The translations under genes and the position numbers were made by a program. Shown here one piece after another: positions 3,112 through 12,832 of a stretch of DNA of 64,000 nucleotides (positions are counted from its first letter, which is position 1; each line of letters begins with the position of its first letter). The notes beneath the pieces are model-generated. The model had not been told where the DNA came from, did not search any database, and worked only from the letters and a program-made list of their open reading frames with translations. The stretch comes from Ohtaekwangia koreensis (GTDB lineage: Bacteria; Bacteroidota; Bacteroidia; Cytophagales; Cyclobacteriaceae), in the NCBI RefSeq assembly GCF_900167975.1, contig NZ_FUZU01000001.1, positions 592,580-656,579 on the forward strand, read 5' to 3'.

Positions 3112-4089
3112 ATGAGACTATACGGAATCATATTGCTTTATTTTCTATCGCTGCCTGCCTGGGCGCAGTTTGATAAAGATTTTTTGGGACTATCAGCTGA
3201 AGAAAATTTGATCCTTAAAAGTATCACTGCCTATGATGTTGTGAAAACTGACACAACAGGCCGGCTTACTCAAATCTGGCTGGAAATTGATTCGCAATTA
3301 TGCTCTTTGAGCGAGAGGATGTCGGCACAAAAGCTTTTGGCGCTAACGTATCATGATAAACCCATAATAAGATGTCGTGCGTTTCATGTGTTGGTTGATG
3401 AATATGAAGGAGACGCTCTTTCTATTATTCAAGAACATATGCAGGATACCGCGGTGGTCCATTCTTTTCCCGGGAGTTGTTTGCCTATGAAGGCGTATGT
3501 AGGCGATTATTTTGTAGAGGTATATCGAAGGAAATGCTTTTTCGCTCGTGACTCTATACAAAGGGGCAAGCTTGATAGCATTGTTATATTTGCCCCAAAT
3601 AAATTAAGCGCACGACATTTCGCTATGTACCGTGCTGCAAATGCCGGAAAGTTTTACAATAAGATAAGGGAAATTGTGATGGAAGCTGAGGTTTCGGGGC
3701 AAGGTATTATTACCCTTGCCAAGTTTCGCAGGGAGCAGGATATAGATTTGATTATGAATTGGAAAAGCTCTGATCATCTTCACCGTGACAGAAACGCTAG
3801 TTGTACTTTTTTTGCTATTGCAGAATTTCCGCATCCTGCTTTCTCTCCGTTCCTTCAACAGTATATTAAAAAGGCTATACTTGCAAAACCAGATGTATCG
3901 TGCCACTTGTTGTATTTTGCTATCGCTAACTATAACAATAAGACTTCGCACGATCTTCTGTCACTTCCGTTTCAAATCGCAGATAAAAGCATACGGACCG
4001 AACATCTAGAAAAGCTATCAGAAGCTTTAAAGATGAATTCTAATCCGATCTATAATGATCTCCGATCTCGGTTGAAGGGGTATAAGTAA
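3112..4089 (+). CDS. Secreted protein of unknown function
   Basis: The 325-residue product starts with a clear signal peptide (about residues 1-19, ending P-A-W-A-Q), so it is exported to the periplasm or beyond. The remainder shows no motif I recognise; it is mixed alpha/beta in character with scattered cysteines (near residues 63, 76 and 124) and no lipobox. The start codon is only about 10 bases after TATATTTG at 3094-3101, which matches the Bacteroidota -7 promoter consensus TAnnTTTG, so the mRNA leader may be very short. It is divergent from the SDR gene and followed by REP repeats. Confidence 0.65.
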   Translation: MRLYGIILLYFLSLPAWAQFDKDFLGLSAEENLILKSITAYDVVKTDTTGRLTQIWLEIDSQLCSLSERMSAQKLLALTYHDKPIIRCRAFHVLVDEYEGDALSIIQEHMQDTAVVHSFPGSCLPMKAYVGDYFVEVYRRKCFFARDSIQRGKLDSIVIFAPNKLSARHFAMYRAANAGKFYNKIREIVMEAEVSGQGIITLAKFRREQDIDLIMNWKSSDHLHRDRNASCTFFAIAEFPHPAFSPFLQQYIKKAILAKPDVSCHLLYFAIANYNNKTSHDLLSLPFQIADKSIRTEHLEKLSEALKMNSNPIYNDLRSRLKGYK

Positions 4090-4180
4090 TATGGCAGTAT
4101 TACGGCTTGATAGAGTTCGCTATAATTTCACCCTTTTGATTTATACTATAGTTGCTGCTTTTGATATCAATCTTGAACCC

Positions 4181-4212
4181 CATCAGAGTCACCGGTCTCC
4201 GGGACTCTGATG
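4181..4212 (+). repeat. REP-like hairpin, copy 1 (forward)
   Basis: Arms CATCAGAGTC and GACTCTGATG enclose an inner CCGG-TCT-CCGG stem with one bulged A: a 14-bp imperfect hairpin. An exact copy is at 7788-7819 and an exact inverted copy at 5038-5069. Confidence 0.93.
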
Positions 4213-4329
4213 CTCTGAGACGCAATCAACGAATGGAAAATATAGTTTAACTATTCTCGCCTTGCCTTCTTCTACTTACGCCCATTGCCGTGATGACGTT
4301 GGATTTTACAACGACTATATATTAATCCC
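4213..4329 (-). pseudogene. Decayed copy of the nuclease gene 3' end within the REP unit
   Basis: This spacer is homologous to the 3' end of the nuclease gene at 11626-12108 plus its 33-bp 3' flank (GAGACGCAATCAACGAATGG is shared). Read on the minus strand it keeps the N-P-T and Q-W codons of the nuclease tail, but one extra base breaks the frame and an in-frame TAG follows. Homology stops at a TATAT junction that is the same in the other copies. Confidence 0.8.
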
Positions 4330-4361
4330 CATCAGAGTCACCGGCTTCCGGAACTCTGATG
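4330..4361 (+). repeat. REP-like hairpin, copy 2 (forward), just 3' of the RAYT gene
   Basis: Same arms as copy 1 with loop CTT and one substitution (G to A) in the right arm base. It ends 28 bp beyond the stop codon of the transposase gene and is followed by the conserved flank (CGAGACGGAACCGCCGAATG), so it may also act as the gene's 3' hairpin. Confidence 0.92.
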
Positions 4362-4389
4362 CTCCGAGACGGAACCGCCGAATGGAAAC

Positions 4390-4953
4390 CTAACCGTTAA
4401 CCGACTTATAATGACAAATCGCTATATCTCCAACCTCACCTAACTCATAGTACCGCGCACTGGAGTGTTGATACTCTGTAAAGTCATTTGCCAGATTCCA
4501 TTTATTGCGAACAGGATTATGATGTATATATTCCAATTTTTGTTCGATCATCTTTTCATCATAACATTTACGCGCATCAAAAGATAATTTGAATACCTGA
4601 TGGTTCTTGCCCTTCAACTGCTCTGCACGTTCAACGCCTTTAGCCAGTATTTCCAACATAGCAGTTTTGCCTTGTTTCTTCAACCCACTTACGATAGAGT
4701 ATGCCATAAACCGTTTGCCATTGCCTATAATTTTACTTAGCGATGTACCACTATGAGTAGGAAAAAGTAAAACATGAAAGTGATTGGGCATGATAACGTA
4801 ACCTAGCAGTAAGCAGCCATCGTGCTTCAAATTATTAAACCATCTATAAACACTGGCGTACGCATCAGCTTCTTCGAATAAAGGCAGCCAATTATAACAA
4901 GTAACGGTACAGAAATATACTTCATGTAATTCTGTTTGTAGCGTGTGTAACAT
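4390..4953 (-). CDS. REP-associated tyrosine transposase (RAYT, Y1_Tnp family)
   Basis: A 187-residue IS200-like single-strand DNA transposase. The metal-binding histidine pair is in M-P-N-H-F-H-V-L-L (His58 and His60); the conserved helix E-Y-I-H-H-N-P-V-R (141-149) holds the probable catalytic Tyr142. Length and the Y-I-x-x-N-P-V-R helix are typical of RAYTs rather than of IS200 transposases (about 150 residues). It is flanked by REP hairpins: two in forward orientation beyond its 3' end and two in inverted orientation beyond its 5' end, the layout of known REP-RAYT units. Known RAYTs bind and cleave their cognate REP as single-stranded DNA; that it acts on this hairpin is inference. The gene looks intact. 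Confidence 0.9.
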   Translation of the reverse strand: MLHTLQTELHEVYFCTVTCYNWLPLFEEADAYASVYRWFNNLKHDGCLLLGYVIMPNHFHVLLFPTHSGTSLSKIIGNGKRFMAYSIVSGLKKQGKTAMLEILAKGVERAEQLKGKNHQVFKLSFDARKCYDEKMIEQKLEYIHHNPVRNKWNLANDFTEYQHSSARYYELGEVGDIAICHYKSVNG

Positions 4954-5037
4954 TTTGATAACGGTATAGATTTGTAAAATAGAGGGTTTAAACTGCTAAT
5001 ACAAATTGAACCGGTGAAATTTTGTAAGGCTCGTATA

Positions 5038-5069
5038 CATCAGAGTCCCGGAGACCGGTGACTCTGATG
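5038..5069 (-). repeat. REP-like hairpin, copy 3 (inverted), 5' side of the RAYT gene
   Basis: Exact reverse complement of copy 1. It is followed by GGGGTGGTAA, a flank also seen (GGGGCGGTAA) after the inverted copy at 8612-8644. Confidence 0.93.
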
Positions 5070-5085
5070 GGGTGGTAAGAATCCC

Positions 5086-5128
5086 CGTCAGAGTTACCAG
5101 CTTCCGCCGGAGACCGATGACTCTGATA
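5086..5128. repeat. REP-like hairpin, copy 4 (degenerate, chimeric)
   Basis: The left part (GTCAGAGTTACCAGCTTCCG) resembles the left half of a forward copy, while the right part (CCGGAGACCGATGACTCTGA) resembles the right half of an inverted copy. This suggests fusion of two halves by deletion or strand switching. The outer arms can still pair with mismatches. Confidence 0.75.
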
Positions 5129-5276
5129 GGCTGTAGTGTATAGCATGCTTATTTCCGATAGCGAACAAATTTATACGAATTCGAACGTACTCAGGGAAGA
5201 AATCTGGGTTTCAACCGCGTCTTACTGGTGGCGCAATAATTGCAAAGGACGGATGACCACCGCTTAATCTTCGTCT

Positions 5277-7676
5277 ATGTTCAGAAATTATATCACAGCC
5301 GCACTGCGGAATTTATTAAGAGAGAGAACCAGTACTCTCCTTAACATCGCGGGTTTAACCCTTGGTATAGCTGGAAGCATTATTCTTTTTCTTATTGTTC
5401 GAAACGGAAATTCGTATGATCACTACCACTCGAAGTTCGACCGCATTTATCGTATAGTAACGGAATCGAAAGGAAACAACGGTGATACTTTTACGCAAGG
5501 TGTTCCACCTATATTGTCCGATGCTTTCCGGAACGACTTCCCTGAAGCTGAAGAAGTGGCTTTCACATCTTATAGAAGAGGCAGCATGGTGAGCGTAGTG
5601 CAGCGTAATGGACAATTAAAAAAATATGAAGAACCAACAGGTGTTGTGTTCACACAATCTTCATTTTTTAGAATCTTCGATCGGTCTATACTAATCGGTT
5701 CAAGCGACAAAGGGTTGGATGAACCGAATAATGCAATTATTTCCAGACGATGGGCCATTAAATATTTCGGCAAGGAAGATGTAGTTGGTGAGATCCTCAG
5801 GTATGACAACAATGATTTTAAAATTTCTGCGGTAATGGAAGATTTTCCTCCCACTACAGACTTCCCTTTTGAACTCATGCTCTCTTATACCACTATTGAA
5901 AAGTCAATGGAGAAAGGCGGATGGGGCGGTATCTCAGATTCAGATAACTGTTACTTTCTGTTAAAAGAGGGTGAACTTATCGACAAGGTTGATCAACGAA
6001 TGTCGGCCTTCGCAAAAAAATATATAGGTATAGGAGATAATGGCAGTGCGGGCTCAAATTTTTTAATTCAACCCCTCGCCGAAATACATTTCGATATGAG
6101 GTTCGGCAACTATAACAAGAGGATGCCTCAAGCAGCAAGCATTGCCTTCACGGTCATAGGTATATTTCTTCTGATTACAGCCTGTATTAATTTTATCAAC
6201 CTTACTACAGCGGAAGTAATCAAGCGAACCAAAGAAGTCGGTATACGCAAGGCGCTGGGAAGCTCACGCGCAGAGTTGATTATAAAATATCTGCTCGAAA
6301 CATCGCTCGTTACTATAGCGGCAGTGTTTCTCGCTATCTCAATTGCTCAACTGGCGCTTGGATTTCTGAATCCGTTTCTTGAGCTGTCACTTTCGCTCGA
6401 CGTTGTTACAGACATCACACTTTGGGGATTTCTAATTTTTATTACTGTTATAGTTTCATTGTTGTCAGGATTGTACCCGGCCATTGCAGTATCATCCCTT
6501 AGGCCTGTGATGGCGTTGAAAAATCAAGTCAGCGGCACACCTTTATCTGGTACAAATTTTCGCAAAGGACTCGTGGTATTGCAATTTTTCATTTCGCAGT
6601 TCTTCATTATCAGCACCATCGTAATTGCAGAACAAATGAATTTCATACTGAGTCAGGATATAGGGTTTAATAAGGACGCGATCATAACAGTTCCCATTCC
6701 GGTCGCAGACGGCAGCAATGACCCAGGTAAAATGCGTGCGTTAAAAAATGAGATCCTTGCATTGCCTGGTGTTGAAAAGGCTACATTGAATGCTACACCT
6801 CCAAGCGCTAATAGTGTAACCGGCACAGATTTCAAAATCGTAGGTAATGAAGAAGATTTCAAGACTCAGATTAAACAGATAGACGGTGACTATTTGGAAG
6901 TTTTTGGCGTAGAGGTTATCGCAGGCCAGGGCCTTTTGGATTCCGACACAATCAACGGGCTTATGGTAAATGAGAGATTAGCAAAAATTGCTGGCTTTGA
7001 TAACATTGATGAAATTGTCGGAAAGGAGATAGAGCTTTCCGGACAGCATCTTACGGTGAAAGGTGTAGTAAAAGATTTTAATACAACAAGCCTGGAAAAA
7101 CCGATCGAGCCGGTTATTCTATTTACAAACATCAATGATTTTCGGAAACTCTCTATCAAATTAAAACCAACGGATATTGAAGAAACGCTCCTTGCTATAC
7201 AGGCGAAGTGGTCACAAATATACCCGGAGTATATATTCAGTTACAATTTTCTTGACGAACAGATTTATAATTTATACCGTGGAGAACGAAAGATGTCGAC
7301 ACTACTGACTATTTTTTCATTCATCGCAGTCTTCATTGGGTGTCTGGGATTATTCGGACTAGTAACTTTTATGGCCAATCGTAAAACAAAAGAGATCGGT
7401 CTCAGAAAAGTGCTGGGTGCGTCAGTGCAAAGTATTATGCTGTTATTCTCAAAGGAATTTGTAAAACTGTTGCTGATCGCATTTCTCATCGCTGCACCAG
7501 CAGCAGGCTTCATGATGCACACAGTTCTTCAGGAATTTGCATATCGCATTCAACTGGGTCCTGTGGTTTTCCTTACCGGATTGAGTGCTACATTCTTAAT
7601 AGCTTTCCTTACAGTGGGATATAGATCGTTTAAATCTGCCAGTGCAAATCCGGTCGATTCGTTAAGATCGGAGTAG
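5277..7676 (+). CDS. ABC transporter permease, MacB/FtsX type
   Basis: The 799-residue membrane protein has the layout of large Bacteroidota MacB-like permeases: an N-terminal transmembrane helix near residues 21-42, a periplasmic MacB_PCD domain (about 50-270), an FtsX domain with three helices (about 285-415), a second N-terminal-like helix (about 430-450), a second periplasmic domain (about 460-670) and a final FtsX domain (about 675-795). The K-E-V/I-G-x-R-K-x-L-G-A/S sequence before each FtsX core is typical and occurs twice. The ATPase partner is not in the window, so the substrate (peptide, lipid or lipoprotein) is unknown. It is a single plus-strand gene between REP blocks. Confidence 0.88.
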   Translation: MFRNYITAALRNLLRERTSTLLNIAGLTLGIAGSIILFLIVRNGNSYDHYHSKFDRIYRIVTESKGNNGDTFTQGVPPILSDAFRNDFPEAEEVAFTSYRRGSMVSVVQRNGQLKKYEEPTGVVFTQSSFFRIFDRSILIGSSDKGLDEPNNAIISRRWAIKYFGKEDVVGEILRYDNNDFKISAVMEDFPPTTDFPFELMLSYTTIEKSMEKGGWGGISDSDNCYFLLKEGELIDKVDQRMSAFAKKYIGIGDNGSAGSNFLIQPLAEIHFDMRFGNYNKRMPQAASIAFTVIGIFLLITACINFINLTTAEVIKRTKEVGIRKALGSSRAELIIKYLLETSLVTIAAVFLAISIAQLALGFLNPFLELSLSLDVVTDITLWGFLIFITVIVSLLSGLYPAIAVSSLRPVMALKNQVSGTPLSGTNFRKGLVVLQFFISQFFIISTIVIAEQMNFILSQDIGFNKDAIITVPIPVADGSNDPGKMRALKNEILALPGVEKATLNATPPSANSVTGTDFKIVGNEEDFKTQIKQIDGDYLEVFGVEVIAGQGLLDSDTINGLMVNERLAKIAGFDNIDEIVGKEIELSGQHLTVKGVVKDFNTTSLEKPIEPVILFTNINDFRKLSIKLKPTDIEETLLAIQAKWSQIYPEYIFSYNFLDEQIYNLYRGERKMSTLLTIFSFIAVFIGCLGLFGLVTFMANRKTKEIGLRKVLGASVQSIMLLFSKEFVKLLLIAFLIAAPAAGFMMHTVLQEFAYRIQLGPVVFLTGLSATFLIAFLTVGYRSFKSASANPVDSLRSE

Positions 7677-7735
7677 TTTAATGTTGGACAAGCCTGGTCT
7701 GTAGCAAAAAGATACAGCCGAATTGATTAAGACGA

Positions 7736-7787
7736 AAGCTTATACCGTTTGCCATGGCGTTGGATCTGCAGCGACTATATATTACCC
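7736..7787 (-). pseudogene. Truncated nuclease-tail fragment (REP unit)
   Basis: The stretch matches the inner half of the nuclease-tail spacer (TTGCCATGGCGTTGGAT then CGACTATATATTACCCC) and abuts the hairpin at 7788, but its own left hairpin is missing. It is a broken copy of the 147-bp unit. Confidence 0.65.
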
Positions 7788-7819
7788 CATCAGAGTCACC
7801 GGTCTCCGGGACTCTGATG
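7788..7819 (+). repeat. REP-like hairpin, copy 5 (forward)
   Basis: Identical to copy 1 over all 32 bases, although the flanking spacer has diverged. Confidence 0.93.
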
Positions 7820-7933
7820 CCTCTGAGACGTAATCAACGAATGGAAATATAGTTTAACTATTCTTGTATACTTTCTTCTGTTTGCACCATTGCCATGGGG
7901 CGTTGGTTTTTTGCAACGACTATATATTAACCC
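7820..7933 (-). pseudogene. Decayed copy of the nuclease gene 3' end within the REP unit
   Basis: Read on the minus strand it preserves W-Q-W-C-K-Q-K-K-x-Y-K-N-S and the stop codon, matching the end of the nuclease (W-Q-W-R-K-Q-K-K-A-S-K-N-S), but a one-base deletion in the proline codons breaks the frame upstream. It is bounded by hairpins at 7788 and 7934. Confidence 0.82.
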
Positions 7934-7957
7934 CATCAGAGGCCGGTGACTCTGATG
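7934..7957 (-). repeat. REP-like hairpin, copy 6 (internally deleted)
   Basis: A 24-base version, CATCAGAG then GCCGG then TGACTCTGATG, that has lost half of the inner stem. The right half matches the inverted orientation, and the GGAGCGGTAA flank fits inverted copies. A further isolated half-arm, ACTCTGATG, follows at 7980-7988. Confidence 0.82.
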
Positions 7958-8042
7958 GGAGCGGTAATCTAATCTGGCTACTCTGATGGAGGATGGATGA
8001 ATAGGAAAAGCAGTAATAGAAATTCGTTGTAGCCGACAGGGA

Positions 8043-8504
8043 CTACTCAACAAAAGCGGCCAGTTTTTCAAGCGTAGATATAGTTCCGGCTTCATTGTCT
8101 TCGGGCTTGATGCCGCGGGGTATATTTTTAAAATGGAACGTTACTTCTGTTCCGTCCTGGTGCAAGGCAAACGTTACTTCCATAATCATTTCACCAGCAA
8201 AGTCAGCCTCGTTTGTTTCAAAATTTACGGCCTCAACAATTTTCTTGTTCGGTATAATCTCTATATAGCGTGATGAGAATTTGTCCTCCTTGCCGGCTGT
8301 CTTCCCTTTAACGTTTACTTCGCTCTCGGGGTAAAACAACGACATGGTATATCCGCCACCCGCACGGAAGTTGAAGTTGTGTACTTTACCAACCATATCG
8401 TTGGGCGCCAGCCAGGCTTCCAACGCTTTTGCGTTCGAGAATGCTTCGAATACTTTCTCTATCGTGGCGTGAATGATTCGGGAGTTTTTTGTTGTTTGTG
8501 GCAT
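8043..8504 (-). CDS. SRPBCC (AHSA1/START-like) domain protein
   Basis: A 153-residue single-domain protein of the activator-of-Hsp90-ATPase (AHSA1-like) group of SRPBCC folds. Typical features are the opening helix region (A-T-I-E-K-V-F-E-A-F-S-N) and A-L-E-A-W-L-A-P near residue 28, the central beta strands, and a C-terminal helix ending L-E-K-L-A-A-F-V-E. Members form a hydrophobic ligand pocket; many are stand-alone proteins of unknown ligand, often beside ArsR regulators, none of which is seen here. It is a lone minus-strand gene flanked by REP copies on both sides (7934 and 8612). Confidence 0.85.
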   Translation of the reverse strand: MPQTTKNSRIIHATIEKVFEAFSNAKALEAWLAPNDMVGKVHNFNFRAGGGYTMSLFYPESEVNVKGKTAGKEDKFSSRYIEIIPNKKIVEAVNFETNEADFAGEMIMEVTFALHQDGTEVTFHFKNIPRGIKPEDNEAGTISTLEKLAAFVE

Positions 8505-8611
8505 AGCGATGTTTTTATTATAGTAAATAAAAAAGTATACCGGATCAGTCCGAAATGACGGTACAGCTAAGCGAAAAAGGGATTTTTAGATGTGGCGTGT
8601 GCGTCACGAAG

Positions 8612-8644
8612 CATCAGAGTCCCGGAGGGCCGGTGACTCTGATG
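8612..8644 (-). repeat. REP-like hairpin, copy 8 (inverted)
   Basis: A 33-base variant with intact outer arms and GGAGGG in place of GGAGA in the centre. The flank GGGGCGGTAA matches the one after copy 3. It stands alone between the SRPBCC and CHASE2 genes. Confidence 0.88.
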
Positions 8645-8702
8645 GGGCGGTAAAAATAGTCCCATTTATAGTCTGTTGAATTTGTGGGCAAAACTTACCG
8701 CC

Positions 8703-8721
8703 AACGTTGGCTATAAGGCGT
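8703..8721. repeat. Boundary motif R, copy 1
   Basis: AACGTTGGCTATAAGGCGT lies 35 bp beyond the stop of the CHASE2-like gene. A close match, AACGTTTAGCTATAAGACGT, is at 10340-10359 on the far side of the RraB-like gene. Together with motif L it outlines two gene units. Confidence 0.55.
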
Positions 8722-8755
8722 TGCCTTACCAAAAATAAACATTAAAGGCAAATGA

Positions 8756-9748
8756 CTATAGACTTTGTTGTAGGCTGGTGCCTTGTCTGCTCTTTGTATT
8801 CCAGTAGATTGAAACTATAGCTGAAATTATCAAAACGACAGTCACCTCGTTAAGTTCAAGGTAATAGTTTTCCGAAAAGGCAAAGACTATTATGTAGGAA
8901 CTTAGTCCGTTAAGAACAATCAGAATTACCAGCCCGAGAAGAAAATTAACAACGTTGTACTTTGTTCGAACGAGCCTGATTAGTACAGTGCATAAAAGAC
9001 CTGCTGCCAAGATAATTAACACACGAAACAGTGGATTAACTTCATTAATAAATTCATTTCTGTTTATAGTTGAAATTATGTTAGCTGAAATCTGAGCGTC
9101 AGACATGTCACCTATATTGTCTCCAGGTCTGCCATACCAATAATTCATCGGTGTAACTAAGCTGTCCCGTAGAAACCCTATAAGAATAGTTTTATCCTTG
9201 AGAACTTCTGGGACTATATTTTCAATCTCGCTCAGCGGTGCACGGAAATATCTGTCTGTTCCCCTGAAATTGATTCTTTCTTTATTGTTTCCTCTTTCCT
9301 TAAGTCCATTTAAATTGTCGGAAAGTTGTAATTCAAAATAGGAGTTTTTGTCTGTTTTAAAATGAGTTATTTCATTTTTAGGAGTCAGAATTCCGCTTGT
9401 TCTTTTATTTGAATTTTTGTCACAGTCGCACGTAATTATATTTTTACTTTCACTAAGATACTTGTTAAGAATTTCACTGGTGTCCTCAATATTGCAAAGA
9501 TTAACTCCAATCGACTTTGGCTCGAATGACTCCAATAGCTCAATGTAAGTCTTCACTGTATCCAAGTCAATATACTCAATGTCCAATAGTACGATTTCGG
9601 TTTCCACTCCCGGATCAGTCCTTAGGCTTTTAAATAGTTCAGCGCTAACCCTGCGAGGTAAGTCTATTGCAAATAAATTGATATCAATAAACTGATAGAG
9701 AATTATGATTGTCAGCGTAAATGCTGTCGAGATAATCAGTCGTTTCAT
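8756..9748 (-). CDS. CHASE2-like sensor domain protein without output domain
   Basis: The 330-residue protein has an N-terminal transmembrane helix (about 5-22), an extracytoplasmic region (about 25-235) and three C-terminal helices (about 238-312). The extracytoplasmic part resembles CHASE2: an early V-L-L-D-I-E-Y-I-D strand, L-K-D-K-T-I-L-I-G-F near 183-192, T-P-M-N-Y-W near 199, and A-Q-I-S-A-N-I-I-S-T-I near 218, matching the I-H-A-N-x-I-x-T-I signature. CHASE2 normally precedes a kinase, cyclase or phosphatase domain, but here the protein ends after the last helix with a short cytoplasmic tail. It could be a sensor acting through partners, or a truncated one. AT-rich and isolated. Confidence 0.68.
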   Translation of the reverse strand: MKRLIISTAFTLTIIILYQFIDINLFAIDLPRRVSAELFKSLRTDPGVETEIVLLDIEYIDLDTVKTYIELLESFEPKSIGVNLCNIEDTSEILNKYLSESKNIITCDCDKNSNKRTSGILTPKNEITHFKTDKNSYFELQLSDNLNGLKERGNNKERINFRGTDRYFRAPLSEIENIVPEVLKDKTILIGFLRDSLVTPMNYWYGRPGDNIGDMSDAQISANIISTINRNEFINEVNPLFRVLIILAAGLLCTVLIRLVRTKYNVVNFLLGLVILIVLNGLSSYIIVFAFSENYYLELNEVTVVLIISAIVSIYWNTKSRQGTSLQQSL

Positions 9749-9840
9749 TCTCTATTGTTAATCGTAATTATTTTTCGGCACTTGTCCTCAGAAGCATGCC
9801 GGCAATCCAAATTAATAATTAATAATCAACTCTGCCGGCT

Positions 9841-9860
9841 TGATTTATATACATTGTTGT
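9841..9860. repeat. Boundary motif L, copy 1
   Basis: TGATTTATATACATTGTTGT, on the 5' side of the CHASE2-like gene. It recurs with one mismatch at 9952-9971. The intervening 91 bases begin with CGGTAG and end with CTACCG (an inverted pair). Confidence 0.6.
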
Positions 9861-9951
9861 CGGTAGTTCTCTTACCCTACACTTAATACAACAACTTGAT
9901 TGTCTCCGGTCAATTGGTCCAAACTGTCACAAATCACAAATTCTACCGCCA

Positions 9952-9971
9952 TGATTTATATACATCGTTGT
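9952..9971. repeat. Boundary motif L, copy 2
   Basis: TGATTTATATACATCGTTGT, 14 bases from the 3' end of the RraB-like gene. It overlaps CGTTGTGCGC (9966-9975), whose exact reverse complement GCGCACAACG lies at 10334-10343 on the other side of that gene, so the gene is framed by a 10-bp inverted repeat. Confidence 0.6.
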
Positions 9972-9984
9972 GCGCTGTTGTGGT

Positions 9985-10308
9985 CTACTCGAAAGCTCCC
10001 CATCCGTCATACTTGAAACCGTGCTTGTTAGCGAAATACGTTAACGATGATTCAATCGCTAACATCTTGTCTTTGTCGAGCTTCATGTCGATGATCACCA
10101 ATATATCCGAGCCGCTCGTTTTTAAATTTTTGAAAGTTATTTCATTCTGATTCAAAAAAGAATCGATTGAATTCTGTGTCGAAGAGTCGGCATGAGCAAT
10201 AACGAATTCGACTTCATAAGTCTTTTCTAACCCAGGATCATTTGGTCTAAATCTGTCGATTGCATCAAGAGTCGCTTGTATTTCGTTCTTTGTTAATTCT
10301 GATTTCAT
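9985..10308 (-). CDS. RraB-like protein
   Basis: A 107-residue small soluble protein. The opening D-P-G-L-E-K-T-Y-E-V-E-F strand and the C-terminal F-K-Y-D-G-W-G-A-F-E match the RraB (regulator of ribonuclease E activity B) domain, whose members end with G-x-Y-D-G-W-x-A. In E. coli RraB binds RNase E; a Bacteroidota target is not established, and many family members occur beside toxin- or immunity-like genes. ATG at 10308 was chosen because the domain then begins normally; an 11-residue upstream extension lies in the inverted-repeat boundary. The gene is framed by short inverted repeats, suggesting it was acquired as a unit. Confidence 0.68.
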   Translation of the reverse strand: MKSELTKNEIQATLDAIDRFRPNDPGLEKTYEVEFVIAHADSSTQNSIDSFLNQNEITFKNLKTSGSDILVIIDMKLDKDKMLAIESSLTYFANKHGFKYDGWGAFE

Positions 10309-10339
10309 ATGGATTCTCTGTCCAGCCACAATTGCGCAC

Positions 10340-10359
10340 AACGTTTAGCTATAAGACGT
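10340..10359. repeat. Boundary motif R, copy 2
   Basis: AACGTTTAGCTATAAGACGT, 31 bp above the RraB-like start; pairs with 8703-8721. The next 200 bases up to 10573 contain a short open frame without recognisable similarity and no start context, so no gene is called there. Confidence 0.55.
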
Positions 10360-10573
10360 ATGCGTGTAAGTACCTAAATCTTTGTCCCACGTTGCTACCG
10401 AAATTTACTAGCACACACGTTAAGAACCTACGGATACAGTTACGTTGTCGTTGACTTGTCTCAAGTCGACCGTTACTATTTTGTTGGCGTGAACGAGTCC
10501 ACGTTTATAAAACTGTCGGAAGAATTCGGTTTAAAGTCGGCCGTCATTCTCCGGGGTGTTGTAAGCGGTTTGC

Positions 10574-11308
10574 TCAGTGATATAACCAGAAAGCTGCTAT
10601 TGCTCCATTTAAATTGTCTAACTTTTTCTTTGTCAATTTATCAAGAAGATAGTAAGTGTCTAACTTATTATCTTGATATAGAATGTACTTCCCGTTTAAG
10701 GAATATGAGGCATTTTTTCCTTTTGCAATTAAAGATTTATCTCCTGTTTGCATATCAAATTCGTAAATTCTATTATTTCCACCAACGAACATTCTAGTAT
10801 CCATACCTTCTAATAGAATCTTGTCCAAGGTTGGCGAAATTTGTGGGTGGCAGAAGCCATATAGATAGTCAATTCGGGAGCTATCAGCATTCCTTTCACT
10901 TAGATTTTTATCTGTACTCCAGGCTATTTTATTGTTTTTATAAAGTCTTACCCAGTTGCCATTTACATTGAGTTCATATTCAGAAAAAAAGAATTGGCGA
11001 GTCGCTATATGTTTTTCTTCAAACTCAGGTTTCATTAAGATAGGATAGGAACTGATCTTTTTAAATACATGACTTTTGAATTTTTGGGTTATCAACTTTC
11101 CTCGGATTTGGAAATAGCATACTAAACTATCGTCTTTTAAATCATATCCTACGAGTTTACCAAACGCATCCCCCGAAAGTTTTTGTGTTTGATTAGCAGT
11201 TAAGTCTAATAAATTTAAAGCTTCGTTGTTTCCCTGATATAACAAAATTTGTGAATGCAGAATTAGATTGAAGCTTAGGAAAATTAATAGACAAAAAAAG
11301 TATCGCAT
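10574..11308 (-). CDS. Secreted protein of unknown function, possible beta-propeller
   Basis: The 244-residue product carries a signal peptide (about residues 1-19, ending L-I-L-H-S-Q). Repeated short strands with L-L-D-L-T-A-N-Q-T-Q-K-L, I-S-P-T-L-D-K-I-L-L-E and S-Y-S-L-N-G-K-Y-I-L-Y resemble the TolB/WD40-like pattern in which 'S-P-D-G-K-x-I' recurs, but no full blade set is visible. A periplasmic or surface binding role is possible; nothing more specific can be supported. AT-rich, between the RraB-like gene and a REP block. Confidence 0.6.
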   Translation of the reverse strand: MRYFFCLLIFLSFNLILHSQILLYQGNNEALNLLDLTANQTQKLSGDAFGKLVGYDLKDDSLVCYFQIRGKLITQKFKSHVFKKISSYPILMKPEFEEKHIATRQFFFSEYELNVNGNWVRLYKNNKIAWSTDKNLSERNADSSRIDYLYGFCHPQISPTLDKILLEGMDTRMFVGGNNRIYEFDMQTGDKSLIAKGKNASYSLNGKYILYQDNKLDTYYLLDKLTKKKLDNLNGAIAAFWLYH

Positions 11309-11415
11309 AGAGTTTCAATTTTTATGGGGTTACGATTATGGCTAGCAATGCCAAAGTACAAAAACTTTTTGGTCCAAGCCGTCACTCTCCTCGTGCATGT
11401 GCCATTATTAATCCC

Positions 11416-11447
11416 CATCAGAGTCACCGGCCTCCGGGACTCTGATG
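11416..11447 (+). repeat. REP-like hairpin, copy 9 (forward)
   Basis: Intact outer arms; inner loop CCT instead of TCT. First of two tandem units at the nuclease locus, spaced 145 bp from the next. Confidence 0.92.
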
Positions 11448-11560
11448 TTCTGAGACGCAATCATCAAATGGAAATATAGGCTAACTATTCTTGCTAACCT
11501 CTTCTGCTTACGCCATTGTCATGTGGGCATTAGGATTTTGCTGCGACTATATATTAACCC
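11448..11560 (-). pseudogene. Decayed copy of the nuclease gene 3' end within the REP unit
   Basis: Near-identical flank (TTCTGAGACGCAATCATCAA) and a recognisable tail (N-P then Q-W-R-K-Q-K) on the minus strand, with a one-base loss that breaks the frame. It joins the next hairpin through CGACTATATATTAACCCC, the same junction as the copies at 4213 and 7820. Confidence 0.82.
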
Positions 11561-11592
11561 CATCAGCGTCACCGGTCTCCGGGACTCTGATG
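11561..11592 (+). repeat. REP-like hairpin, copy 10 (forward), just 3' of the nuclease gene
   Basis: One substitution in the left arm (CATCAGCGTC). It ends 33 bp beyond the stop codon of the intact nuclease and is probably the source from which the tail-carrying repeat unit arose. Confidence 0.92.
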
Positions 11593-11625
11593 TTCTGAGA
11601 CGCAATCAACGAATGGAAATATAGT

Positions 11626-12108
11626 TTAACTATTCTTGCTTGCCTTCTTCTGCTTGCGCCATTGCCACGGTGGTGTTGGGTTTTGCATCGACCATATTTT
11701 GCGGTGGTGACTTTTTGCCTGATGCTCAAGCTCGGCCCAGTGTTGCGTGTTGTCGTATTGTTTATAGTGCCACGCCAGACCTGCGCGCAATAGCGATTCG
11801 TTTACGTTGGTGGTGTCTACTTTTACGATGGCAACCGTGCGGCCATAGCGATCTTTCTTGGTAGTTAGTATCGTTACGGATTTACCTGCGATGAGGTTGG
11901 ATATATACTCTTTTGCTACGTTGCCGAAGTCTTGTCCTTTTTCGGGGCAGTCTACACCGTGCAGACGGATTCGTTTTTTCTGGTGGTTGTTTAATAGAAT
12001 CGTGAACGTGTCGCCATCGGCTATCTTTACTACTTTGCCCGTGAGGGTTTGTGCGTGCAGTAAAACATGGACAAAAAACAGGAGTGTGAATAAAAGGACT
12101 ATGCGCAT
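11626..12108 (-). CDS. Secreted thermonuclease (SNase-like)
   Basis: A 160-residue staphylococcal-nuclease homologue. A signal peptide covers residues 1-19; the OB-fold nuclease domain follows. Expected catalytic residues are present: D-G-D-T at 31-34, Arg48 and Glu56 in R-L-H-G-V-D-C-P-E with Asp53, and Arg90 in D-R-Y-G-R. The family's C-terminal N-P-x-P-P-W-x-W-R motif is at 143-151, showing that the tail is native to the gene and not contributed by the repeat. It should cut extracellular DNA/RNA with Ca2+. The last 20 or so codons and the 3' flank have been copied at three or four other places in the window along with the downstream hairpin. Confidence 0.92.
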   Translation of the reverse strand: MRIVLLFTLLFFVHVLLHAQTLTGKVVKIADGDTFTILLNNHQKKRIRLHGVDCPEKGQDFGNVAKEYISNLIAGKSVTILTTKKDRYGRTVAIVKVDTTNVNESLLRAGLAWHYKQYDNTQHWAELEHQAKSHHRKIWSMQNPTPPWQWRKQKKASKNS

Positions 12109-12165
12109 TGGGCTGCTAAACTATAAATAATAAATAAACGAATGGTAACGATTTTATTTTATAGC

Positions 12166-12468
12166 CTATTGTTTTTGTTTTAAAAGCTCGCTATATATTT
12201 CTGTGGCGAGTTGGGTTAGTTGTTTTTCACGTTGCGTGATGTTGGTTAAGTCGATGGTTTCACTTTGCCGGGTGAGGTTGTAATATAGGTTGAGGATGGC
12301 ATCATTCTCTGTATCGAGGCCGATGAGGTTGAGAATGGTTTCGCTCAGGTGCAAGTGATAATCGCCAGCACCAAGCCCAAGTGTATTTAACCCGTTGATG
12401 AGTTTGTTGCTGATGAGGTCGTCTTTGATGAGAGATAAGATTAACTGATTGGTATATTTTTGAATCAT
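12166..12468 (-). CDS. Small helical protein of unknown function
   Basis: The 100-residue product is almost entirely predictable as alpha helix, rich in Leu, Ile, Asn and Thr, without a signal peptide, membrane segment or cysteine. ATG start at 12468. It ends 57 bp before the nuclease start on the same strand and is divergent from the XRE regulator at 12623, with an AT-rich 154-bp region between them that probably holds both promoters. Function unknown. Confidence 0.6.
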   Translation of the reverse strand: MIQKYTNQLILSLIKDDLISNKLINGLNTLGLGAGDYHLHLSETILNLIGLDTENDAILNLYYNLTRQSETIDLTNITQREKQLTQLATEIYSELLKQKQ

Positions 12469-12622
12469 GACTTAATTTTTATGATTCAATACTACATAAA
12501 AATGATTAAATACGAAATAAGTATTTCGTTTATAGTCATGTTTAGTTCGTTTTAAATCATTTAATTGTCTGGCTATCAGTACGTAGTTTTGGCTGGTAGT
12601 TGAGTTACTTTAGATTATATCC

Positions 12623-12832
12623 ATGCCAAAAAAAGAGATCAACAGAATTAAGCTTGTGCTTGTTGAGAAGAAGAGAACTAATAAATGGTTAGCAGAACAA
12701 TTAGAGATTGATCCTTCCACCGTTTCTCGTTGGTGTACAAATGATATGCAACCTTCATTAGAAACTCTTGTTGCAGTTGCAAAGGTTCTTGATGTTGATG
12801 CAAGGGAGTTGATTGTATCGACTAAGAAGTAA
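12623..12832 (+). CDS. Small XRE-family (Cro/C1-type) DNA-binding protein
   Basis: A 69-residue protein consisting of a single Cro/C1 helix-turn-helix (about residues 8-63): N-K-W-L-A-E-Q-L, then the recognition helix D-P-S-T-V-S-R-W-C-T-N, then P-S-L-E-T-L-V-A-V-A-K-V-L-D-V. No extra domain. Such proteins act as local repressors or toxin-antitoxin partners. The divergent 100-residue gene at 12166 shares the intergenic region and is the obvious candidate target. A hairpin follows at 12869. Confidence 0.88.
   Translation: MPKKEINRIKLVLVEKKRTNKWLAEQLEIDPSTVSRWCTNDMQPSLETLVAVAKVLDVDARELIVSTKK

Follow-up and report, generated by a model that had tools for sequence, protein, structure and literature searches.

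We analysed a 64,000-nucleotide window of the Ohtaekwangia koreensis genome (G000, 7.24 Mb in six contigs; the window is positions 592580–656579 of contig C6), in which the end of an SNase-type nuclease gene recurs between hairpins of a repetitive extragenic palindrome (REP) family. The recurrence is a REP-anchored duplication of neighbouring DNA with a preferred side and a donor direction, and in G000 it is confined to this locus. The duplication is real, polarised and local; it is not a gene tail carried around the genome. Moreover, the nuclease tail is not special, and pieces of RDD-family, 194-amino-acid (aa), DinB-type, GMC-type and REP-associated tyrosine transposase (RAYT) genes are duplicated alike in the genus and family. 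The comparison included the sister genome G005 and the relatives G001 and G004, and site searches covered the seven genomes of the genus set.

The REP hairpins of the window lie in one direction at 4182, 4331, 7789, 7935 (shortened), 11417 and 11562, with the family consensus CCCC-ATCAGAGTCACCGG(C/T)CTCCGGGACTCTGAT. The initial annotation had placed these hairpins correctly within 1 nt, and its paired spacings of 149, 146 and 145 bp were reproduced. It did not contain the REPs of opposite orientation at 5039 and 8613 or the degenerate REP at 5087. The REPs are imperfect palindromes of about 34–36 nt that fold to −23.3 kcal/mol and are located between open reading frames (ORFs). They were located by a mismatch scan, which gave a total of 78 REPs in the scanned loci, including weaker ones. 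REPs usually number more than 100 per genome according to PMC2817692, but the window's family has a low copy number: at no more than three mismatches, there are 10 matches in G000, 7 in G004, 14 in G001 and 15 in G005, and none in G002, G003 and G006. REP families are described in PMC3733652 as carrying a GTAG or CGTC tag at one end. The foot of the window REP is GGGG; the window tags have a CGTC 6 nt away from the hairpin, but the right end of the RAYT element in G001 does not. A known RNA element was rejected as the identity of the repeats, because an Rfam search of window positions 3900–12700 gave no match up to an E value of 1.

Three full copies and one partial copy of the nuclease tail lie beside these REPs; the partial copy was absent from the initial annotation. 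With the REPs masked, the spacers match one another or the gene tail over 108–118 bp with 82–86% identity (BLAST). The homology to the gene comprises the stop codon, the last 24 codons (11626–11700) and 34 nt of the 3′ flank, which confirms the proposal that a shared spacer between the hairpins is homologous to the nuclease tail. When the leftmost unit was used as a query against the whole genome, the other three places matched with E values of 1.4e-40 to 4e-51; therefore, the similarity is beyond chance. A single-base frame break had been assigned to each copy, and this holds only in part. The 4.2-kb copy has several indels; the 7.8-kb copy is in frame (NI-stop-SLQKTNAPWQWCKQKKVYKNS-stop); and the 11.4-kb copy has two compensating indels. 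All three full copies have a TGG-to-TAG change in common. A partial copy resembling that at 7745–7785 lies beside the permease gene on contig C68 of G005 (L085). Tandem REP clusters that include flanking sequence occur in the window, G005 and G021.

The nuclease of G004, which is 81% identical to that of the window, has the tail in homologous form, and a search of the surrounding 16 kb detected no REP of this family. Because G004 has the tail without a nearby REP, the nuclease gene is the donor of the repeated sequence. Among 44 homologue loci, including the window's gene, 25 carry the motif P-(W/F)-x-(W/F/Y/L)-(R/K) within the final 45 residues, and this also bears out the donor role that had been claimed for the gene. 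For this count, L054–L056 were omitted (L054 and L056 repeat L002 and L003, and L055 is the C19 gene of G005, which is therefore outside the 44 loci), while L005 and L059, two entries of a single record that contains an N run, were both scored as negative. Two positions separate all genes from all copies, and G004 has the gene state at both. Both differences are at the junction and therefore add little weight. The reverse direction, in which the repeat gave its sequence to the nuclease and became its C-terminus, would be suggested by the similarity alone. It is contradicted by the G004 gene, by the tail motif in the 25 loci and by the gene state of G004 at the two positions; we rejected it as highly improbable.

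Right behind the REP foot, nine aligned copies have ATATATAGTCG in place of the ATATGGTCG of the genes; among these copies, C19_d of G005 differs in the letters before ATATATAGTCG. This common junction supports the view of the initial annotation that the copies stem from a single capture event. In a tail tree, built with FastTree from about 110 columns and 10 of the 13 rows of the copy alignment, the copy adjacent to the gene (t11410) clusters with two G005 copies with a local support of 0.90. The first duplication therefore looks older than the split of G000 and G005.

The distribution of the copies points to a local process. In G000, the genome-wide search in which the leftmost unit served as the query returned 13 matches with E ≤0.001, and all 22 candidates were scored. 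Four of them, at this locus, extend into the tail, and the rest are confined to the REP part, so that no tail copy was found at an unlinked site or anywhere else outside this locus in G000. The 11.4-kb unit as a query gave the same outcome among the best 7 of 25 candidates scored. In G005, the tail copies are on contigs C19 (L071), C30 (L072) and C68, which bear genes of the same region. The initial claim that the tail spread with the hairpin as a mobile unit is thus not borne out, and genome-wide spread was rejected for G000.

In relatives, the convergent 325-aa ORF and the nuclease are near neighbours. The homologue of this ORF is located 1.3 kb from the nuclease on contig C3 of G004. On contig C164 of G001, the two genes flank an N run; therefore, their real distance is hidden. 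About 7.4 kb, from 4.1 to 11.6 kb of the window, are absent at this place in G001 and G004, and this block was presumably gained here rather than lost in both relatives. The same region of G005 is split over contigs C2 (L090), C68, C30 and C19, which carry the permease, AHSA1-type and 244-aa genes; on C30, the CHASE2 and RraB-type genes are missing between the AHSA1-type and 244-aa genes. The tail copies are thus located at the seams of this stretch, on whose two sides lie genes that are near neighbours in relatives. The N run in G001 (L074 4490–4551) covers the 3′ end of the nuclease gene and its flank, where the assembly may have been interrupted by a REP array. Contigs C19 and C30 of G005 hold two versions of the nuclease locus, and the two contigs break off at an identical base within the AHSA1-type gene. 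The coverage of C19 is about 3 and that of C30 is 14, and C19 may be a strain variant.

Similar duplications were found beside REPs at other genes. The 194-aa gene is intact in G005 (C2, L090 1096–1680), and a 107-bp repeat of its 3′ end (91%) begins right behind a REP-like GGGG. Inspection by eye identified the REPs of L090; the mismatch scan found none there at its threshold. At L077 on contig C5 of G000, a REP doublet is bracketed by a 97-bp repeat (91%) that comprises the final 16 codons, the stop codon and the flank of an RDD-family gene. In G021, the 50 codons at the end of a RAYT gene recur in tandem together with a REP (217 bp, 98.6%). The starts of a DinB-type and a GMC-type gene in G001 are covered by REP-adjacent repeats of 67 and 78 bp; at L092 of G004, one REP that lies upstream of an ORF has copies of a 69-bp repeat on both sides. 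For two further RAYT-like genes in G000, the first ~8–12 codons and the left flank are found again upstream. An array of eight REPs (period about 125 bp) was observed upstream of the G021 RAYT gene whose 3′ end repeats in tandem downstream (L091 3454–4460). L077 also contains, at 8845–9570 and 2.4 kb from the REP doublet, a tandem array of at least six copies (84–93% identical) with a ~107-bp period.

We compared REPs with random positions for the presence of a direct-repeat edge within 25 bp, where a repeat had to be at least 45 bp long, at least 73% identical and within 4 kb. The statistic covered 50 REPs with no more than five mismatches in 18 genus loci, and excluded three G021 loci and weaker REPs. 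Such an edge was found at 21 of the 50 REPs. Thirteen of the 21 belong to the nuclease-tail arrays, which leaves 8 of 37, and REPs of one array are not mutually independent in this count. Random positions more than 1 kb from any REP had an edge in 1345 of 54000 cases (2.5%) in the same loci and in 94 of 21000 cases (0.45%) in seven REP-free loci. Direct repeats of at least 60 bp were present in 16 of 28 RAYT loci and in 2 of 29 nuclease loci, among them the nuclease array of G005. These numbers are from 29 RAYT loci, from which L125 was omitted because it is on the same contig as L105, and from 30 nuclease loci, from which the window's own locus (L001) was omitted. Ten junctions were compared and represent seven independent cases, since four are one nuclease junction at different places. 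In five of the seven cases (nuclease, G021 RAYT, 194-aa, RDD and L094), the copied sequence begins 2–4 nt past GGGG.

The RAYT-like gene adjoins the array. Its translation contains NHFH and YIHHNP, which would correspond to a HUH motif and a catalytic tyrosine. It matches NF047646 with 72.2 bits (E 4e-20, residues 10–164), below the cut-off of 80, and is a clear homologue below the curated score. A PDB sequence search gave no match up to an E value of 0.1. The gene is flanked by REPs in opposite orientations at 4331 and 5039, and a RAYT relative on contig C262 of G001 is likewise located between inverted REPs. The sequence ATTCGTTGATTG is found both in the tag that separates the nuclease from its REP and at the right end of the RAYT element of G001. 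Therefore, the nuclease occupies the place that the RAYT gene has in a complete RAYT element. The protein resembles RAYT/TnpA-REP subclass 2.6 as described by Quentin et al. (2018, PMC6006769), whose members are from Bacteroidetes, have about 180 aa, carry NHxH and YIHxNP, and have atypical flanking hairpins. However, NHFH and YIHHNP are each one residue off the motifs in the table for this subclass (NH[LIV]H and YIH[QN]NP), and the tie is one of resemblance, not of placement by a tree.

Given these observations, we see about an even chance that the locus arose by REP-anchored local duplication, perhaps through RAYT cleave-and-join activity, and was later split by gene insertions. A REP of the right-end type (short tag, hairpin and GGGG foot), which G004 lacks, would have arrived just after the stop codon of the nuclease. 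A DNA segment that begins within the last 24 codons and includes the 3′ flank and the REP would then have been copied, with the copy starting right after the GGGG foot. The product would be a tail-REP-tail-REP direct repeat that formed before the split of G005, and the array would have grown locally. The RAYT element, the permease, the AHSA1-type gene and other genes may have entered at these REPs, in the interval between the nuclease and the convergent 325-aa ORF, so that the tail copies now mark the seams, and other REP-adjacent genes would have undergone the same duplication. The copying step may have been catalysed by RAYT. The enzyme would nick at the REP foot, and the freed 3′-OH would be joined to an irregular second break about 65–185 nt upstream on the sister strand, doubling the REP-adjacent DNA.

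This reading agrees with the tail-REP-tail-REP arrangement with an identical junction in G000 and G005 and with the RAYT gene next to the array. It also draws on the REP-free tail in G004, the confinement of the G000 copies, the short distance between the 325-aa ORF and the nuclease in G004, the duplications at other genes, and the repeat counts and GGGG junctions given above. The E. coli enzyme, in the account of PMC8266576, cleaves at C|T beside the REP and at discrete distant sites and rejoins the ends, and the same source names strand transfer and priming as possible routes of REP spread. A broader proposal, which we hold only tentatively and at less than even confidence, is that RAYTs of this Bacteroidota group nick at the GGGG foot and join the end to an irregular break about 65–185 nt upstream or to a staggered target, doubling neighbouring DNA that is often a gene end. 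If true, REP arrays would be strings of truncated copies of REP-adjacent genes, which record how RAYTs move REPs.

Several points weigh against local duplication by RAYT. The action of RAYT at this locus is something that we infer, and plain slippage at a hairpin predicts nearly the same tandem product. Flanking duplications are missing at 29 of the 50 REPs. The contrast in repeats of at least 60 bp includes the REP arrays themselves because REPs were not masked, and the control of non-REP hairpins, of which 1 of 15 has a flanking duplication, is small. A tabulation of duplications by GGGG side and tag side was confounded by the masking and carries no weight here. The GGGG rule was partly selected for because the cases were picked near REPs, and two of the seven deviate from it: the copy begins 6–10 nt past GGGG at L092 and about 15 nt from the hairpin, without GGGG, at L097. 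No common motif was seen at the upstream breakpoints in the compared cases. A G005 tail copy (L071 2959–3051) lies on the far, 5′ side of the nuclease; therefore, a strictly one-sided array does not explain it, and it is the sole sign of short-range movement. The 3′ flank of the G001 nuclease is masked by the N run. Finally, the tree that the initial annotation had called for gave the clade of t11410 with G005 copies, but several of its nodes are weak (0.31–0.75), the G005 copy C19_c falls among the genes at 0.60, and the genes of G000 and G004 are paired (0.94) despite 98% protein identity between G000 and G005. The tree is of limited use and should bear no weight.

Three other explanations for the copies were considered. 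A 147-bp mobile REP unit that picked up the tail of the nuclease and then moved by transposition to three sites, as initially proposed, would account for several copies with a common junction between hairpins and for the G005 copy across the nuclease from the others. We regard it as improbable, because G000 has no copies beyond this locus and because the copies sit in an expanded interval between genes that are neighbours in relatives. Passive duplication by replication slippage or unequal recombination at strong hairpins, with RAYT as a bystander and with later REP–REP exchange moving segments, is a more serious contender, which we consider possible but somewhat unlikely. The tandem units share a few letters (AATA) at the nuclease junction, the REP hairpin folds to −23 kcal/mol, and REP clusters that repeat with their flanks are already known (PMC3116915 and PMC3733652). 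However, non-REP hairpins rarely showed such duplications in the small sample, and direct repeats also bracket the REP doublet at L077 and a 2.9-kb segment at L090, which is beyond slippage alone.

The bracketing repeats suggest, instead, a long target-site duplication, in which elements with REP ends insert with target repeats of about 65–110 bp and thereby double adjacent gene ends. We place this explanation, too, well short of even, as a doubtful but real possibility. It fits the repeats around the single REP at L092 and the REP doublet at L077, and the 107-bp repeats around the 2.9-kb segment of L090, whose REP-like ends were seen by eye. Long and variable direct repeats of 8–514 bp are reported for IS1549 and IS1634 (PMC2266710). 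However, the REP is itself part of the repeated unit at the nuclease and at the RAYT tail of G021; therefore, these two are tandem duplications. L090 has no REP at the scan threshold, and members of IS200/IS605 are said in PMC2817692 to make no larger target duplications. No clean single-copy empty site was found at L077, L092, L097 or L094, each searched in the seven genus genomes. The L077 site in G005 lacks the repeat and the insert, but the RDD gene, the REP and the repeat are missing together. At the L097 site, G000 has no REP, and G004 and G001 have REPs with different duplications. L092 matched other genomes in its REP alone, and the two flanks of L094 match separate contigs in G004.

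REP-anchored local duplication has partial precedents. REPIN clusters of P. fluorescens are described as tandem repeats that include flanking sequence and are located beside RAYT genes (Bertels and Rainey 2011, PMC3116915), and REP clusters of the GTAG family are reiterated with flanking segments (Di Nocera et al. 2013, PMC3733652). The array studied here is like these ordered clusters in that REPs are in tandem together with flanking DNA. It is unlike them, as they are described in these two papers, in that the flank includes the coding ends of neighbours, an outgroup sets the donor direction, and other genes interrupt the array. Thus, REP clusters that repeat with flanks are already in print, and the duplicated coding ends of genes would be the new aspect. 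A narrow search of the open literature found no title or abstract on REPs that duplicate coding ends, and cases with coding ends may be among the REP clusters already published. The system is also like the IS200/IS605 single-strand transposons in its putative tyrosine HUH transposase and in the subterminal hairpins at the left and right ends. It differs in the direct repeats of ~70–107 bp that flank some REP-bearing inserts; according to PMC2817692, IS200/IS605 elements do not produce larger target duplications. The system shares with IS1549/IS1634 that insertions are surrounded by direct repeats tens to hundreds of bp long; this family is set apart from IS4 elements in PMC2266710, and the likeness rests on the repeats, as no transposase of that kind was searched for.

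The spread of REPs is described as poorly understood (PMC8266576), and the REP-adjacent copying hints at how REPs multiply. Duplications from one side of a hairpin with identifiable gene ends are a readable footprint, which gives the orientation, direction, breakpoint and relative age of each event. The footprint also yields a testable prediction: the duplication should start at the GGGG foot and require the RAYT tyrosine. In addition, the duplications suggest how REP sites become places of gene accumulation between two convergent neighbours. The features of the locus are listed in Table 1.

Table 1. Features of the nuclease-tail array and its surroundings (window coordinates)
Feature	Position	Strand	Basis or remark
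325-aa ORF, convergent with nuclease	3112..4089	+	Near neighbour of nuclease in G001 and G004
Decayed copy, 3′ end of 194-aa gene	4077..4174	-	86% over 98 bp to G005 L090 1606-1703; near GGGG foot of REP 4182
REP hairpin 1	4178..4213	-	REP scan; folds to -23.3 kcal/mol with RNA parameters
Nuclease-tail copy t4180	4213..4329	-	118-bp match to t7780, 82%; several indels
REP hairpin 2	4327..4362	-	At 3′ (right-end) side of RAYT gene
RAYT-like gene	4390..4953	-	NCBIfam NF047646; NHFH and YIHHNP motifs
Inverted REP	5038..5073	+	RAYT 5′ (left-end) side; 100% complementary to 4177-4212
Degenerate REP	5083..5128	.	REP scan
MacB/FtsX-type permease	5277..7676	+	PF12704, PF02687; in block absent from G001 and G004 here
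Partial nuclease-tail copy	~7745..7785	-	Copy alignment
REP hairpin 3	7785..7825	-	REP scan
Nuclease-tail copy t7780	7821..7934	-	Frame intact except shared TAG
Shortened REP hairpin 4	7935..7960	-	REP scan
Inverted REP	8609..8648	+	Upstream of AHSA1-type gene (8043-8504, -)
REP hairpin 5	11413..11448	-	REP scan
Nuclease-tail copy t11410	11447..11557	-	FastTree clade with G005 C30t and C19_b, local support 0.90
REP hairpin 6	11557..11593	-	Directly downstream of nuclease
Donor stretch: 3′ flank, stop, last 24 codons of nuclease	11592..11700	-	REP-masked BLAST, alignment
SNase-type nuclease, intact, 160 aa	11626..12108	-	PF00565, E 2e-24, 86.6 bits against cut-off 21

Two minor observations were made on other repeats and RAYT genes. 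The intergenic sequences at window positions 10339–10440 (~95 bp) and 9792–9858 (67 bp), in a stretch of small genes, recur widely in G000 and relatives with 78–92% identity in the listed rows, and they belong to a dispersed family distinct from the REPs. On contig C479 of G130 (L105/L125), a second, broken RAYT stretch is located about 1.3 kb downstream of an intact RAYT gene.

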